Assembly (NCBI GenBank): GCA_018242665.1
Contig: JAFEBL010000007.1
Location: 186,001-250,000, forward strand
Source of the DNA: Nitrospira sp.
Lineage (GTDB): Bacteria; Nitrospirota; Nitrospiria; Nitrospirales; Nitrospiraceae
DNA: 64,000 nucleotides
Reading direction: 5' to 3'
In this document: positions 22,977 to 28,139 of the stretch, in pieces
Position numbering within the stretch: position 1 is the stretch's first letter
Layout of the letters: each line of letters begins with the position of its first letter
Notes under the pieces: model-generated
The model's input: the letters and a program-made list of their open reading frames with translations, nothing else
Told to the model about the DNA's origin: nothing
Database searches by the model: none
Made by a program: the position numbers and the translations under genes

Positions 22977-23048
22977 CGCAGAGACTCTCCTTGCATGTGA
23001 GTGATGATTCCGGTCCATGGGCTCTCTTCGCCGTCGCTGGGAGGGCGG

Positions 23049-23078
23049 TTGCGACTGTTCTTCGTGGTTTGTTAAGAT
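23049..23078 (+). promoter_or_regulatory. Candidate sigma-70 promoter for tRNA-His
   Basis: TTGCGA (23049-23054) and TAAGAT (23073-23078) are separated by 18 bases, and the second lies 24 bases before the mature 5' end of tRNA-His. Both hexamers match the consensus at four or more positions. Confidence 0.4.
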
Positions 23079-23102
23079 GCGCGTTCTCTGTGGGTCGAGC
23101 GT

Positions 23103-23180
23103 GGTGGGTGTAGCTCAGCTGGTTAGAGCGCCGGATTGTGGATCCGGAGGTCGCGGGTTCGAAACCCGTCACTCACCCCA
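23103..23180 (+). tRNA. tRNA-His (anticodon GTG)
   Basis: The sequence folds into a standard cloverleaf: acceptor stem GTGGGTG (23104-23110) with CACTCAC, D-arm GCTCAGCTGGTTAGAGC, anticodon stem CCGGA/TCCGG with anticodon GTG at 23138-23140, and T-arm GCGGGTTCGAAACCCGT. The 3' CCA is encoded. The extra G at 23103 faces discriminator C, giving the G-1:C73 pair specific to histidine tRNAs, which histidyl-tRNA synthetase requires. A PilZ gene begins 35 bases downstream with no terminator between. Confidence 0.97.
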
Positions 23181-23214
23181 ACCTTGTGGCCCGATTCGCC
23201 GGACGAGTACTGTG

Positions 23215-23589
23215 ATGACGGGTAGCAATAAACACCTGGCTCCGCTGGCTCCTTCTCGCCCCCCGGTTGCTGTCGGCACTCGATTTCAGGTGCGGTCGTT
23301 TCGTCGGTTTCCTATCCAGTGTTCCATCTACTACTCCTGTGACCAATTTCACGGCAGCGGCATGGCCTGGAATCTGTCGCTTACTGGGTGGCGGGTTGAC
23401 GGGACGCACCCCGTTGAACCGGGGATGCTCGTCACGTTCTGTATCTTCCTTCCCGATCAGCACTCGACCGTCTTTGTCGAGCGCGCGATCGTGCGCTGGT
23501 CCCGGGGCCAGGAATTCGGCATTGAAGTGGAGTCCATCAAAGCCGATGAACGGGCCAGACTCGAACAGTTTGTGACGGCACTCATCTAG
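23215..23589 (+). CDS. PilZ-domain protein 1
   Basis: A 124-residue single-domain protein. After a short Pro-rich lead come VRSFRRFPIQCSIYYSC, then NLSLTGWRVDGTHPVEPGM, LPDQHSTVFVERAIVRW and FGIEVESI, the strand order of PilZ domains, which bind cyclic di-GMP. The Arg-rich RSFRRFP corresponds to the RxxxR loop and NLSLTGWR to the (D/N)xSxxG motif, so ligand binding is plausible. Start chosen at the ATG after the tRNA; the longer frame runs through tRNA-His. It is the first of three tandem PilZ-like genes. Confidence 0.82.
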   Translation: MTGSNKHLAPLAPSRPPVAVGTRFQVRSFRRFPIQCSIYYSCDQFHGSGMAWNLSLTGWRVDGTHPVEPGMLVTFCIFLPDQHSTVFVERAIVRWSRGQEFGIEVESIKADERARLEQFVTALI

Positions 23590-23729
23590 TTCTGCTTCCG
23601 CCGCTCGCGCCAATCGAACGGGTTCCCGGTGTGGGGAACGAGAATCTCCTTGGTCAATTCCTGCAAGTTGAGTAGACTTGGTTGTGGCTGAGGACCCTCT
23701 TCGCTCGGATCAACCTTTTGCGCAACACC

Positions 23730-24071
23730 ATGGCCAAATCACACACTTCTCGCTCCCATTCACGCGTTCCTGTCAGCTGCTTTCTCTATTACCTCGGTGA
23801 TGGGCTGGTCGGAACCGGCAAGGTCTGTGATCTGTCCGTGAAGGGTTGGCGCATCGAGGGGGATAAGCCGGTTACCGTCGGGATGAAACTCACGTTGCGG
23901 GTCTTTTTGCCCGATCAACCCAAGGCCATCGATGTCGAGGGTGTCACCGTGCAGTGGGTGAGGGATCGGGTATTCGGCCTCGAAACCGTGAGAATGAACG
24001 CCAGCGCGGAAGCGCGCATCCACAGGTTTGTGGAGTCGGTGCTCTCGTCGGAATCCCCCCGCGTCGCCTGA
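23730..24071 (+). CDS. PilZ-domain protein 2
   Basis: A 113-residue single-domain protein with SRSHSRVPVSCFLYYLGDGLVGTG, DLSVKGWRIEGDKPVTVGM, VFLPDQPKAIDVEGVTVQWV and FGLETVRM. It is clearly paralogous to its upstream neighbour (shared PDQ..V..VQW and GW(R)x(D/E)G stretches). The RxxxR loop is represented only by SHSRVPV, one Arg short of the canonical pair, while DLSVKGW keeps the (D/N)xSxxG motif, so c-di-GMP affinity may be lower. The ATG at 23730 is preferred to an upstream TTG/ATG because it gives the paralogous start; no strong ribosome-binding site is visible. Confidence 0.8.
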   Translation: MAKSHTSRSHSRVPVSCFLYYLGDGLVGTGKVCDLSVKGWRIEGDKPVTVGMKLTLRVFLPDQPKAIDVEGVTVQWVRDRVFGLETVRMNASAEARIHRFVESVLSSESPRVA

Positions 24072-24227
24072 TTAAGGGCGCGGCCCCTCCTGTTCATTCA
24101 GCCCTGCGACCTTTCCGCAACGGTTCGTTGCCCACGCAGATGGCGCTCAACCATCCCCCCACTTTCGGGGACTATCCTGCAATCTGTTGTTTTTCATATT
24201 CTGCCGAAGCGTTTGCGTGGAGGCATG

Positions 24228-24593
24228 ATGGAACAACAGAATCGCCCGCGGTTTATCGTCGAGTGTACCGGATCGCGTTCCGAGGACGGCCTGCTGGTCT
24301 GGAATGGCCGGATGCTGGACCTCTCAATTCCAGGCTGGTCGCGGACCGGGCTCAAGGGATTGCAAGCCGGAGATCTTCTCCAGCTGCATCTTCATCTTCC
24401 CGGCCAGCCGAAGCCGCTGTCTGTCAGACTGGCGACCATTCGGTGGGCGAATGATTCCCGGTTAGGGGTCGATCCCATTCTCATGGATGCGGACGATCAA
24501 CTCCGTCTGAACGACTTTGTCAGTGCGCATGTTCCGTTGCCGTCATTCAATAGCGATCGACATGAACAAATTGTCATTGCGGATGCGGGATAA
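24228..24593 (+). CDS. PilZ-like protein 3 (divergent)
   Basis: A 121-residue protein aligned with the two genes before it: RPRFIVECTGSRSEDGLLVWNGRMLDLSIPGWSRTGLKGLQAGD, then HLPGQPKPLSVRLATIRWAND and LGVDPILMDADDQLRLNDFV. The (D/N)xSxxG motif is DLSIPG, but the N-terminal RxxxR loop is only RPRF, so binding of c-di-GMP is doubtful. GGAGG ends 4 bases before the ATG used; an adjacent ATG three bases earlier is possible. It completes the tandem PilZ trio behind tRNA-His. Confidence 0.75.
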   Translation: MEQQNRPRFIVECTGSRSEDGLLVWNGRMLDLSIPGWSRTGLKGLQAGDLLQLHLHLPGQPKPLSVRLATIRWANDSRLGVDPILMDADDQLRLNDFVSAHVPLPSFNSDRHEQIVIADAG

Positions 24594-24911: not shown

Positions 24912-26228
24912 ATGAGAGATACATGTATGACGCCTGGCTCCCATCTTCCCGAGATCGCCCATACCACGCCCCTGACGCCGGAAACAGAAACGCAGGTTGA
25001 GCAATTTGCCCACACGGACATTTTGGTCGGCATTCCCAGCTTCAATAACGTCGAAACCATCGGGCATGTTGTCAAGGCGGTGAGTGCCGGCTTGGCCAAG
25101 TATTTTCCGGATGCACGCGCGGTGCTGGTGAACTCGGACGGCGGGTCCACGGATGGCACACAGCAGGTGGTGGCGCAGGCCGTGGTCGACCTCAAAACGC
25201 TGTTTATCGGCGATCAGCAGAGTTCGCTGCACAAGATTATTACGCCCTATCACGGAATTCCCGGAAAGGGCAGCGCATTCCGGACGATCTTTGAAATCGC
25301 GCGTCGTTTGAAGGCCAAGGCTTGTGCCGTCGTGGATTCCGACTTGCGCAGCATCACGCCAGAGTGGATTGAACTGCTGGTGAATCCGGTGTTTGAACAG
25401 GGGTTTGACTATGTCGCGCCCTACTACTTGCGGCACAAGTACGACGGGACCATTACCAACAGCATCGTCTATCCGTTGACGCGCACGCTCTACGGCCACC
25501 GGATCAGGCAGCCGATCGGCGGCGACTTCGGGTTTTCCGGTCAACTCGCCCAGCATTATCTGGACAAACATGTGTGGGAATCGGAGGTCGCTAAATTCGG
25601 GATCGACATCTGGATGACGACGGAGGCCATTGCCAGCGGGGCGAGGGTGTGCCAAAGTTTTCTGGGTGCCAAAATCCACAATCCCAAGGATCCGGCCGCC
25701 GACTTGTCGGCCATGCTGGTGCAAGTACTCGGCGCGGTGTTTGCCCTCATGGAAGATCACTATGCGGTCTGGGGCAAGACAGACGGGTCAAACGCGGTGC
25801 CTCTGTTTGGGTTTCAGTACGAAGTCGGGGTAGAGCCGGTGAACGTGAATGTCGATCGCATGATCAGCACGTTCCGTCAGGGGTTGAGTGATTTGGGGAC
25901 GATCTGGGATCAAATTCTCGCTCCAGGGACCAGGCAAAGTCTGCGACTGTTGGGGACCTGTGCCTTGCAGGATTTTCGCATCGCCGATAGCCTGTGGGCG
26001 CGGGTCGTGTATGACGCCGCCGTCGCCTACCGCAATCGAGTGTTGCCGCGTGATCACGTCTTGAAGGCGTTTACGCCGTTATATCTGGGACGGACCGCGT
26101 CGTTTGTGCTGGATACCCAAGGGCTCACATCGAGTGAGGCTGAAGGGCGCATCGAAGCGCTCTGCCAGGCGTTCGAAAAGGATAAGTCGTATCTGGTGGC
26201 GCGCTGGAACGAATCGCATACCAGTTGA
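24912..26228 (+). CDS. Glucosyl-3-phosphoglycerate synthase-like glycosyltransferase
   Basis: A 438-residue GT-A fold glycosyltransferase. It shows DILVGIPSFNN, the nucleotide-binding VLVNSDGGSTDGT, a PGKG motif in YHGIPGKGSAFRTIFEIAR and the DxD metal site DSDLRS, the last two being hallmarks of GpgS-type (GT81) enzymes that transfer glucose from NDP-glucose to 3-phosphoglycerate. An extended C-terminal region of about 150 residues is helical. Two genes on, and on the other strand, sits an MPGP-type phosphatase, which would remove the phosphate to give glucosylglycerate or mannosylglycerate. The sugar cannot be decided from sequence. GGAGG ends one base before the ATG, so an ATG at 24927 is an alternative. 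Confidence 0.78.
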   Translation: MRDTCMTPGSHLPEIAHTTPLTPETETQVEQFAHTDILVGIPSFNNVETIGHVVKAVSAGLAKYFPDARAVLVNSDGGSTDGTQQVVAQAVVDLKTLFIGDQQSSLHKIITPYHGIPGKGSAFRTIFEIARRLKAKACAVVDSDLRSITPEWIELLVNPVFEQGFDYVAPYYLRHKYDGTITNSIVYPLTRTLYGHRIRQPIGGDFGFSGQLAQHYLDKHVWESEVAKFGIDIWMTTEAIASGARVCQSFLGAKIHNPKDPAADLSAMLVQVLGAVFALMEDHYAVWGKTDGSNAVPLFGFQYEVGVEPVNVNVDRMISTFRQGLSDLGTIWDQILAPGTRQSLRLLGTCALQDFRIADSLWARVVYDAAVAYRNRVLPRDHVLKAFTPLYLGRTASFVLDTQGLTSSEAEGRIEALCQAFEKDKSYLVARWNESHTS

Positions 26229-26285
26229 TGGTCGCAATTCCGTCCATCTGAAGGCAGGCTGCAGTCGAGGCCGGAGGAGGGAAGC

Positions 26286-26993
26286 ATGAAGGAATTTTTC
26301 GAGAAGGGTCTCCTTGACCCTCTGGAGTTGATGGCGCGGCAGGTGCTTGCGGTCTTGCCAAGCCTTCTCGCGATGTCCATCATTTTCTTCGCGGGTCTCG
26401 TGGTGGCCTGGACTGCGAGCCAGGCACTGGAACGGCTGTTGCGCGTGGTCGGGCTGGATCGACTGTTCGACCGATTGGGCGTCACCGGCGCCTTGCTTCG
26501 CGGCGGCGTGAAGACCGATCCCTCGCGATTGGTGGGACAAGCGGCCTATTGGCTGGTGATGATCTTTGCGACCGTTGCCGCGTTGGGGGCGCTCAATCTT
26601 CAACCAATCAACGATTTTGCCAAGTCGTTCCTCGCCTATGTCCCGCACTTGGTGACGGCCAGCTTGATCCTGATCGCCGGGTGGCTGCTGTCCAACTTTG
26701 TGTCCCAGGCCGTGCTGATTGCCGCCGTCAACGCGGGGTTGCCTCCGGCACGCCTGGTGGCGACTTGTTCCCGTTGGGGCATTCAGCTGTTGGCGGTGGC
26801 CATGGCGTTGGAGCAACTTGGCATCGCGCAAAATATCGTGGTCGTCGGGTTCGGCATTACGCTGGGAGGGATCGTCATGGCGGGGGCAATCGCCTTCGGT
26901 CTGGGCGCAAAAGATTTGGCCAAAGATTACCTCGAGCGGGGGTTATCGGTTCGGACCCGCAATGGCGCGCCGGATGATTTGAGGCATCTATGA
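26286..26993 (+). CDS. MscS-type (conserved TM helix family) membrane protein
   Basis: A 235-residue integral membrane protein with four or five helices: around residues 20-45 (PSLLAMSIIFFAGLVVAW), 85-105, 115-150 (HLVTASLILIAGWLLSNFV), 165-185 and 190-215 (ITLGGIVMAGAIAFGLGAKDLAKDYLERGL). The final segment resembles the pore-lining TM3 and start of the beta domain of MscS channels, and paired repeats of the PF05552-type 'conserved TM helix' are visible. It lacks the large cytoplasmic vestibule of MscS. GGAGGAGGGAAGC precedes the ATG. Placed directly behind a compatible-solute synthase it may release or sense solutes during osmotic shifts; the role is inferred. Confidence 0.78.
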   Translation: MKEFFEKGLLDPLELMARQVLAVLPSLLAMSIIFFAGLVVAWTASQALERLLRVVGLDRLFDRLGVTGALLRGGVKTDPSRLVGQAAYWLVMIFATVAALGALNLQPINDFAKSFLAYVPHLVTASLILIAGWLLSNFVSQAVLIAAVNAGLPPARLVATCSRWGIQLLAVAMALEQLGIAQNIVVVGFGITLGGIVMAGAIAFGLGAKDLAKDYLERGLSVRTRNGAPDDLRHL

Positions 26994-27253
26994 AGACTGA
27001 ACAAGTGTTGAAGGTCGAAGATAAAGGACAGGGTATGGCCAAGAACATTTCGGAAATTGATGGCGAAGCGAAGGCACGGCGCTGGCTGGGCGGAGAGGCG
27101 GCGGTGCCACGCTACCCCCATCGGCGTCAGAACCCGTTTCGGTTCAACCGCTCGTTGTTGGGGCTGGTGGCCTTTGCCACTGGATTGGGCTTCGTCGGGG
27201 GCCTGCTGATCGGGCTGCAAAGCCGTCGTCCCACTGTTCGACCGAAGGAGTAA
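26990..27253 (+). CDS. Small single-pass membrane protein
   Basis: An 87-residue protein, soluble and basic for its first 50 residues, with one hydrophobic segment LLGLVAFATGLGFVGGLLIG and a basic tail. Its ATG overlaps the stop of the upstream channel-like gene in an ATGA arrangement, so translation is coupled. No family is recognised; it could be a subunit or membrane partner of the channel-like protein. Confidence 0.65.
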   Translation: MKTEQVLKVEDKGQGMAKNISEIDGEAKARRWLGGEAAVPRYPHRRQNPFRFNRSLLGLVAFATGLGFVGGLLIGLQSRRPTVRPKE

Positions 27254-27302
27254 CCATGCGCCGACCGCTGTACCGATGGCGGAGAGTTGTCCGGGAGTGT
27301 CG

Positions 27303-28139
27303 TCAGGTCGAATCGCTCAGGCGATACAACAGGGCCGAGAGACTCCGGTTCCATCCAACCGGTCCGACTCCGTCAGCCCGGATGAGGTGGGGAAGCTGCA
27401 CCTCCGGATCATAGGAGCCGTCGGGTTTCTGGATAAGAATAGGATAGTCCGCGACCGCTAACATGGGCCGATCGTTCAGGCTGTCCCCGAGGCCGATCGT
27501 TACGACTTCTTCCCCCTTTTGTTCCGCCGCCCGCCGATACCACGAAATGAGCCGCGTGCTCGCCAGTCCTTTATCGTTCGCACCCATCACGTGATAAAAC
27601 CGTCCACCCCTGGTGCAGCGGAGTCCTTGCCTCTCTACCGCAGCTTCCAATTGATCCCAGGATATCCCGTCCCCCTCAACGACAAACGGCTCGTCATATT
27701 CCCGCTGGGTTGCCAGCCTGGCCTCATCGGCTGATAAGCCTGTCAGTTGAGCGACCTCTTGAATGGAGAGATCGCCGAACCCCCGCAACCGGCCGCCGAG
27801 TTCCTGTCGAATGCGATTCAACGCCGCACGAAGCCCGGTATAGGCTGTGCCGAGTTCGACGACCTCGTATCCGTCACGAATGGATGCCTGCTCAAGAGGA
27901 AATGGAAAGATGCCGCGTGGAATGAACAACGCCCCGCCATTCTCCACAATAAAGGGAGAGGAATTGTGCAGCCGGCGGCGAAGCGGTTCCATCTCCGACC
28001 GGGTCTTGCTGGAGACGAGAATAAGCGCGGCGCCAAGTTGCTCAAGCAGCGCGAGGGCTTCGCGGGCAGGCTCGTAGGAATAGGTCGTGGTGTCGAGCAG
28101 GCTCCCGTCCAAATCTGTCAGCACGAGGATACGGCGCAT
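27303..28139 (-). CDS. Mannosyl-/glucosyl-3-phosphoglycerate phosphatase (HAD, MPGP family)
   Basis: A 278-residue HAD phosphatase of the MPGP/YedP subfamily. Motif I is LVLTDLDGSLLD, motif II the VSSKTRSEME segment, followed by FIVENGGALFIP, a signature of MPGP enzymes, and motif IV is TIGLGDSLNDRPML. Also VEGDGISWDQLEAAVERQGLRCTRGGRFYHVMGANDKGLA matches the cap domain. These enzymes hydrolyse mannosyl- or glucosyl-3-phosphoglycerate to the compatible solute. It faces the GpgS-like glycosyltransferase gene two genes away, consistent with one pathway on two transcripts. ATG at 28139 chosen because upstream residues are not conserved; AGGAG lies 13 bases before. Confidence 0.85.
   Translation of the reverse strand: MRRILVLTDLDGSLLDTTTYSYEPAREALALLEQLGAALILVSSKTRSEMEPLRRRLHNSSPFIVENGGALFIPRGIFPFPLEQASIRDGYEVVELGTAYTGLRAALNRIRQELGGRLRGFGDLSIQEVAQLTGLSADEARLATQREYDEPFVVEGDGISWDQLEAAVERQGLRCTRGGRFYHVMGANDKGLASTRLISWYRRAAEQKGEEVVTIGLGDSLNDRPMLAVADYPILIQKPDGSYDPEVQLPHLIRADGVGPVGWNRSLSALLYRLSDST

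Follow-up and report, generated by a model that had tools for sequence, protein, structure and literature searches.

A glycosyltransferase gene (GT) and the gene of a membrane protein of the MscS superfamily (TM) form a conserved pair in a stretch of Nitrospira sp. DNA (GenBank assembly GCA_018242665.1, contig JAFEBL010000007.1, positions 186,001 to 250,000 of the forward strand; 64,000 nucleotides, referred to as the window). The linkage of GT and TM is far above chance, intact GTs occur in genomes that also encode enzymes of sugar-glycerate synthesis, and the pair is retained where GT has lost its catalytic residues. It is proposed, with a probability of roughly 0.6, that these genes belong to a set for an anionic sugar-glycerate osmolyte, in which GT would add the second sugar as part of a complex with TM, TM would couple membrane tension to the enzyme, and the degenerate pair would be regulatory. 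How bacteria measure turgor and use this to set osmolyte synthesis is a long-standing question.

A first-pass annotation had described this part of the window as a compatible-solute module joined to an MscS-type channel. The four open reading frames it named are present at the positions and on the strands given (24912-26228, 26286-26993 and 26990-27253 on the plus strand, and a phosphatase frame reaching to 28139 on the minus strand), and the synthase, here GT, contains the PGKG and DSDL motifs. The features of the pair and of the phosphatase are:

24912..26228, plus strand: GT, 438 amino acids, GT-A glycosyltransferase with a C-terminal helical domain (PF00535, AlphaFold2 fold)
25266..25343, plus strand: catalytic-motif region of GT, from K119 (PGKG) to D142-S-D144 (DXD) (conservation)
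25677..25679, plus strand: H256 of GT, which pairs with the His in 'GVRAH' of GpgS (profile alignment to 7pdo; conservation)
26055..26057, plus strand: H382 of GT, within the C-terminal helical domain; candidate for the interface with the partner (linkage correlation)
26286..26993, plus strand: TM, 235 amino acids, MscS-superfamily membrane protein with PF05552 helices only (profile matches, AlphaFold2)
26973..26990, plus strand: C-terminal tail of TM (DDLRHL-COOH, His second from the end), candidate docking motif (linkage correlation)
27303..28139, minus strand: MPGP-type HAD phosphatase, convergent to the GT-TM genes (TIGR01486; closest structure 3ztw)

Linkage of GT and TM across genomes

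Among 198 Nitrospirota genomes, GT matches were obtained in 92 and TM matches in 100. TM lies directly downstream of GT and on the same strand at 108 of 112 GT places. Counted from the side of TM, GT adjoins 108 of the 113 TM places scoring above 250 bits and none of the 25 weaker PF05552 places. Two of the four TM-less GT places are real (L095 and L107); of the other two, G080:C200 is at a contig edge and G063:C178 gives a partial match and appears truncated. The genome of the window encodes exactly two GTs and two TMs, arranged as two pairs, and GT-TM loci often show overlaps of 4 or 8 bp.

A scan of GTDB species genomes, from which the best 80 of 571 GT relatives were kept, gave a similar picture: TM follows GT in 79 of these best 80 loci, and the single miss (L185) is a contig end. 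To judge by their record titles, loci with the pair come from, among others, Zixibacteria, Acidobacteria, KSB1, Aminicenantes, Gallionellales and Deltaproteobacteria. The linkage of synthase and membrane protein is thus conserved in Nitrospirota and extends well beyond them. Conservation of all four genes across Nitrospirota, which the first-pass annotation had proposed as a check, holds for the GT-TM linkage and for the co-occurrence of the MPGP-type phosphatase in genomes, but not for the small protein, which is restricted to one genus (see below). In the deltaproteobacterial locus L190 (7282-8938), one of the 79, the TM gene is interrupted by an apparent transposase insertion, as judged from the translation.

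The distance matrices of GT and TM correlate with r 0.53, compared with a maximum of 0.164 in 1000 permutations; part of this correlation could be due to shared ancestry alone. No description of the GT-TM pair was found in searches of an open-access full-text library, including passages of PMC11009771, PMC3694870 and PMC10965496, a scope that mostly leaves aside subscription journals.

Sugar-glycerate context and identity of GT

Intact GT, defined as a match at at least 54% identity, is present in 87 of the 198 Nitrospirota genomes. All 87 encode a glucosyl-3-phosphoglycerate synthase (GpgS) or a GpgS-like enzyme, in 84 genomes of the family F3 and in three of the mycobacterial type fused to GT, versus 3 of the 111 genomes without intact GT (Fisher p 2e-53). 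The MPGP phosphatase family is found in 83 of the 87 and in 4 of the 111 others (Fisher p 2.5e-45; kinship is ignored in both tests). The exceptions with GpgS and without intact GT are G035, G112 and G117; in G035, TM is found at a contig edge, adjoining F3.

F3 shares a locus with GT in 31 of 81 first-set loci and, outside Nitrospirota, is present in 17 of 20 genomes with GT loci (of unstated completeness; including L184 and L189, phylum unstated). It matches the model GpgS_Meth over its full length at 357-381 bits, which, given the curated cut-off of 700, indicates homology and not an assignment. The F3 of the window's genome (G000:C10:208460-209686, full-length match at 357.5 bits against the same cut-off) is encoded away from GT, and a gene upstream of it encodes a thiamine-pyrophosphate enzyme. 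The linked operons in other genera show the same neighbour, so the GT/GpgS operon was probably split in the window's genus. In the three genomes with a fusion, the mycobacterial-type GpgS (365-374 bits, above its cut-off) is joined to the N terminus of GT. Glycerate 2-kinase genes lie within the locus at four Nitrospirota loci and several others. The co-occurrence with GpgS and MPGP together with these kinase neighbours fits a glycerate-sugar product, with GT acting beside GpgS. Fusions of the MPGP-type phosphatase to glycerate 2-kinase were observed in L179 (3774-5984) and L190 (3276-5732), representing both domain orders.

The phosphatase of the window passes the MPGP family model TIGR01486 (238.1 bits, cut-off 164.75) and falls just under the cut-off of TIGR02461, the equivalog model for mannosyl-3-phosphoglycerate phosphatase (226 versus 244.35 bits). 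Its closest solved structure is 3ztw, a mannosyl-3-phosphoglycerate phosphatase (E 2.5e-41). The MPGP-type label holds at the level of the family but not of the equivalog. A sugar-glycerate solute module is supported as the context of the pair.

GT itself has a single above-threshold Pfam match, PF00535 (E 3.2e-6). The family PF21969 (MGS_GT) gave no match to GT at E up to 1, and a plasmid search with GT returned one distant Halorussus match and nothing else. With GT as a single query, phmmer found no match in the PDB, and a profile query was needed to obtain one. The AlphaFold2 model of GT has pLDDT 86.9 and pTM 0.86, and its best structural match is mannosylglycerate synthase (MGS), with Z 31.1 and an rmsd of 3.7 over 353 aligned residues at 17% identity. 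GpgS (Z 17.3 over 222 residues) and mannosyl-3-phosphoglycerate synthase (Z 16.2 over 234) come next, and GtrB and ArnC are found further down the list.

The first-pass annotation had taken GT for a GpgS-type synthase which, with the phosphatase, would give glucosylglycerate or mannosylglycerate. In one such scheme GT is the glucosyl-3-phosphoglycerate synthase, the phosphatase releases glucosylglycerate and TM is a linked anchor. GT and GpgS do share PGKG, the DXD motif (DSDL) and the His of LGAKIH in the profile alignment to 7pdo, and an MPGP-type phosphatase is encoded nearby; H256 of GT is presumably a metal ligand. However, GT scores only 50.9 bits on the GpgS model NF010496, for which the cut-off is 262, a separate GpgS-like enzyme or a fused GpgS accompanies intact GT in 87 of 87 genomes, and the fold is nearer to MGS than to GpgS. 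The assignment of GT as GpgS was rejected for these reasons, and synthase and phosphatase alone are not supported as the source of either solute. The three GpgS-GT fusions would moreover be redundant. This explanation is improbable.

Still less probable, to the point of being very unlikely, is that GT and TM produce a membrane glycoconjugate, such as a glycosylated lipid or an envelope sugar, instead of a soluble osmolyte. Envelope glycosyltransferases commonly need an obligatory membrane partner, and the presence of GtrB and ArnC lower in the structural match list would agree with such a function. The near-perfect co-occurrence with GpgS and MPGP, the glycerate 2-kinase in the operon and the MGS fold argue against it.

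GT is probably a second sugar transferase for a glucosylglycerate-derived solute, working with GpgS and the MPGP-type phosphatase. In the proposed pathway, the GpgS-like enzyme, encoded elsewhere in the window's genome and beside GT in relatives, would form glucosyl-3-phosphoglycerate. GT would add a second sugar to this compound or to glucosylglycerate, with mannose as a first guess, which would lead to mannosylglucosylglycerate, and the phosphatase would take off the phosphate. Neighbouring genes were also considered as a guide to the donor sugar, but a GlgC-type gene near a few loci was insufficient to name it.

Degenerate pairs and a candidate GT-TM interface

Paralogous GT-TM loci of about 40% identity (L092-L111 except L095 and L107; n = 18, Nitrospirota) lie mostly within clusters of TreS, TreT, GlgE, maltokinase and GlgB. 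The full set of K119, D142, D144 and H256 is found in 141 of 141 GTs of the main group versus none of the 18 TM-linked paralogs, in which D142 survives in 10, H256 in three, D144 in one and K119 in none. Positions conserved to at least 95% in the main group are retained by the paralogs at 77% in the C-terminal domain versus 58% in the catalytic domain.

The same was observed in Acidobacteriota. In a sample of 199 genomes, GT was found in 53 and TM in 63, and 40 of 58 GT places were fetched. Seventeen of the TM-linked GTs lack the full catalytic set (0/17 intact; one of them, L208, is a fragment, and the alignment of this set is loose over the catalytic part) and three are intact, while the 20 TM-less GTs are all catalytically intact. 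TreS adjoins 17 of the 18 degenerate loci in Nitrospirota and 13 of the 17 in Acidobacteriota (14 when either TreS or maltokinase is counted), compared with none of 61 loci of the main Nitrospirota group and none of 20 Acidobacteriota loci without TM. The GT and TM trees both place L093 apart from the main degenerate clade, and the TM tree does so for L094, so that the catalytic loss may have occurred more than once. Two TM-less Acidobacteriota GTs (L231, L233) are part of 627-aa frames and are possibly other fusions. DUF5752 proteins recur next to the TreT/TreS clusters (e.g., L092, 4191-4967), and this family is present in 21 first-set loci.

The retention of TM beside a dead GT points to a non-catalytic function of the pair, probably a regulatory one. 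In the trehalose clusters with TreS, the degenerate pair would most likely be a sensor, a scaffold or a regulator. These pseudoenzyme copies provide a natural separation of catalysis from the other role of the pair.

TM was described as an MscS-type channel. MscS-type transmembrane helices are recognised in it, as it matches PF05552 at 57.4 bits and NF033912 at 107.4 bits (cut-off 100; a paralogue TM reaches 77 bits, below this cut-off), and all 54 aligned members, the window protein among them, contain PF05552. The model of the MscS beta-domain, PF00924, gave no hit to the window protein with E values of up to 1 allowed, nor to any of the 54 aligned members with a limit of 0.01, and a cytoplasmic cage is likewise not recognised, so that the term 'channel' is too strong. 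A TM profile matches MscS weakly (E 0.065). The AlphaFold2 model is all-helical (pLDDT 80.5, pTM 0.57), and its best VIA match is MscS (2oau; Z 8.9, rmsd 1.6 over 66 residues), a value within the chance range for helical bundles to which weight is given only jointly with the PF05552 match. A true MscS gene with beta-domain is located near the pair in L089 (7961-9049), and its family occurs in seven first-set loci. Away from GT genes, helix units of the PF05552 type are repeated within long frames at G065:C1:275014-276504 and in several Acidobacteriota genomes.

The MscS-type helices raise the possibility that the enzymes make the solute while TM is a mechanosensitive pore releasing it upon downshock, the linkage reflecting co-expression of synthesis and release, as was also suggested by the first-pass annotation. 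The same TM partner at both sugar-glycerate and trehalose clusters would suit a solute pore. The beta-domain is, however, recognised in none of the 54 homologues, and TM tracks GT specifically, degenerate GTs included, and is missing beside the 20 fetched intact TM-less GTs. Its retention with a dead GT counts against a release pore, which needs no dead GT. On balance a release function appears rather unlikely.

Correlations with linkage point to a possible contact between the two proteins. Position 382 of GT holds a His in 172 of the 178 TM-linked sequences, whether active or degenerate, versus 0 of 22 TM-less GTs (Fisher p 3e-24, kinship ignored; the contig-end locus L185 excluded). The GT-linked TMs end in His plus a mostly hydrophobic residue in 172 of 175 complete proteins, made up of 137 of 140 with an active GT and all of those with a degenerate GT (18 and 17); three frames that are truncated were not counted. 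The penultimate His is found in none of 21 unlinked PF05552 relatives. As the linker ahead of this terminal dipeptide varies in length, the conserved C-terminal dipeptide may be a docking peptide. We infer a GT-TM complex docked through the TM tail, probably with a regulatory role. In this complex the His-hydrophobic tail would contact the C-terminal helical domain of GT around H382, and TM would anchor GT at the membrane and most likely couple tension or turgor to its activity. Such coupling is directly testable, as the pair consists of two genes, is broadly conserved and offers a short motif as a candidate for docking together with a matching residue in the enzyme.

A further proposal is tentative and has clearly less than even odds. 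The C-terminal domain of GT, held by the TM tail, might replace the missing cage of MscS, so that tension would gate synthesis and possibly flux of the solute at one site, and the pair with a dead GT would be a turgor sensor for trehalose metabolism (TreS, maltokinase, GlgE). If true, GT as the cage of TM would constitute a direct link, at the level of the enzyme, from membrane tension to osmolyte synthesis.

Several observations weigh against the proposal of a second-sugar enzyme in complex with a tension-coupling TM. None of the counts is corrected for phylogeny. Some GTs are intact although no TM adjoins them (L095, L107 and the 20 fetched Acidobacteriota loci), and the enzyme can therefore do without TM. 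Operons of F3, TM and MPGP without GT are present in two genomes (L195, 3998-5975, and L196), so that TM may serve GpgS too; the TM tail is intact in L195, and the TM frame of L196 has a stop just ahead of the expected RHL tail. H382 is lost in six of the 178 TM-linked GTs (L086, L088, L089, L091, L173 and L222), three of which are GpgS fusions. The scores of F3 remain under the curated cut-off of GpgS_Meth. The structure model of TM reaches only a modest pTM of 0.57, and a Foldseek search with it gave no match at E 0.001.

Neighbouring genes and comparison with known systems

Downstream of TM, one further feature is found on the plus strand:

27035..27253, plus strand: small single-helix protein, probably 72 amino acids (shared start and ribosome-binding site; the 87-aa frame is 26990-27253)

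An 87-residue protein with an ATGA overlap had been predicted here as a third component of the module. In 12 of 12 loci of the same genus, the position equal to window 27035 carries a start codon together with a ribosome-binding site rich in purines, and the overlap is not supported as the start; the protein probably starts at 27035 and comprises 72 residues. It contains one hydrophobic stretch, and its median dN/dS of 0.17, with dS near saturation, suggests a real gene. No match was found in a plasmid search. As it is found in 12 of the 81 first-set loci, all of them from the genus of the window, it was rejected as a conserved component beyond that level and is better seen as a genus-level addition. 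Upstream of GT, two PilZ-like open reading frames (23682-24071, above the Pfam cut-off, and 24213-24593, just below it) and a third at 23017-23589, which is clustered with the first and overlaps a tRNA-His gene (23104-23180), form a trio (23017-24593) retained in the genus.

Among characterised enzymes, the closest in fold is mannosylglycerate synthase (Rhodothermus marinus; class GT78). The likeness covers nearly the whole of GT including the C-terminal helical domain, but GT differs by the low identity of 17%, the lack of an MGS_GT match, a near-constant membrane partner gene and the co-occurrence with GpgS and phosphatase. GpgS has the GT-A motifs PGKG, DXD and the terminal His in common with GT, which differs by its sub-cut-off score, a separately encoded GpgS and the extra C-terminal helical domain. 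The MggA/MggS pathway to mannosylglucosylglycerate in Petrotoga mobilis reportedly uses GpgS, a second glycosyltransferase and a phosphatase, as proposed here; it is not known to involve a membrane partner. According to PMC3694870, mannosylglucosylglycerate occurs in Rhodopirellula baltica and Petrotoga.

With respect to TM, E. coli MscS resembles it in the transmembrane helices (E 0.065; Z 8.9 over 66 residues), but no beta-domain is recognised in the TM family. A precedent is CmpX, an MscS homologue of Pseudomonas aeruginosa which, in the accessible text of PMC10965496, is described as regulating the sensor kinase PA1611 and as the neighbour of cfrX in one transcription unit, cfrX-cmpX. Like TM, it is a membrane protein of the MscS family whose gene has a close neighbour, and a regulatory effect has been reported for it; unlike for TM, that text mentions no glycosyltransferase partner. 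The regulation of a sensor kinase by CmpX (PMC10965496) makes a regulatory role of TM plausible.

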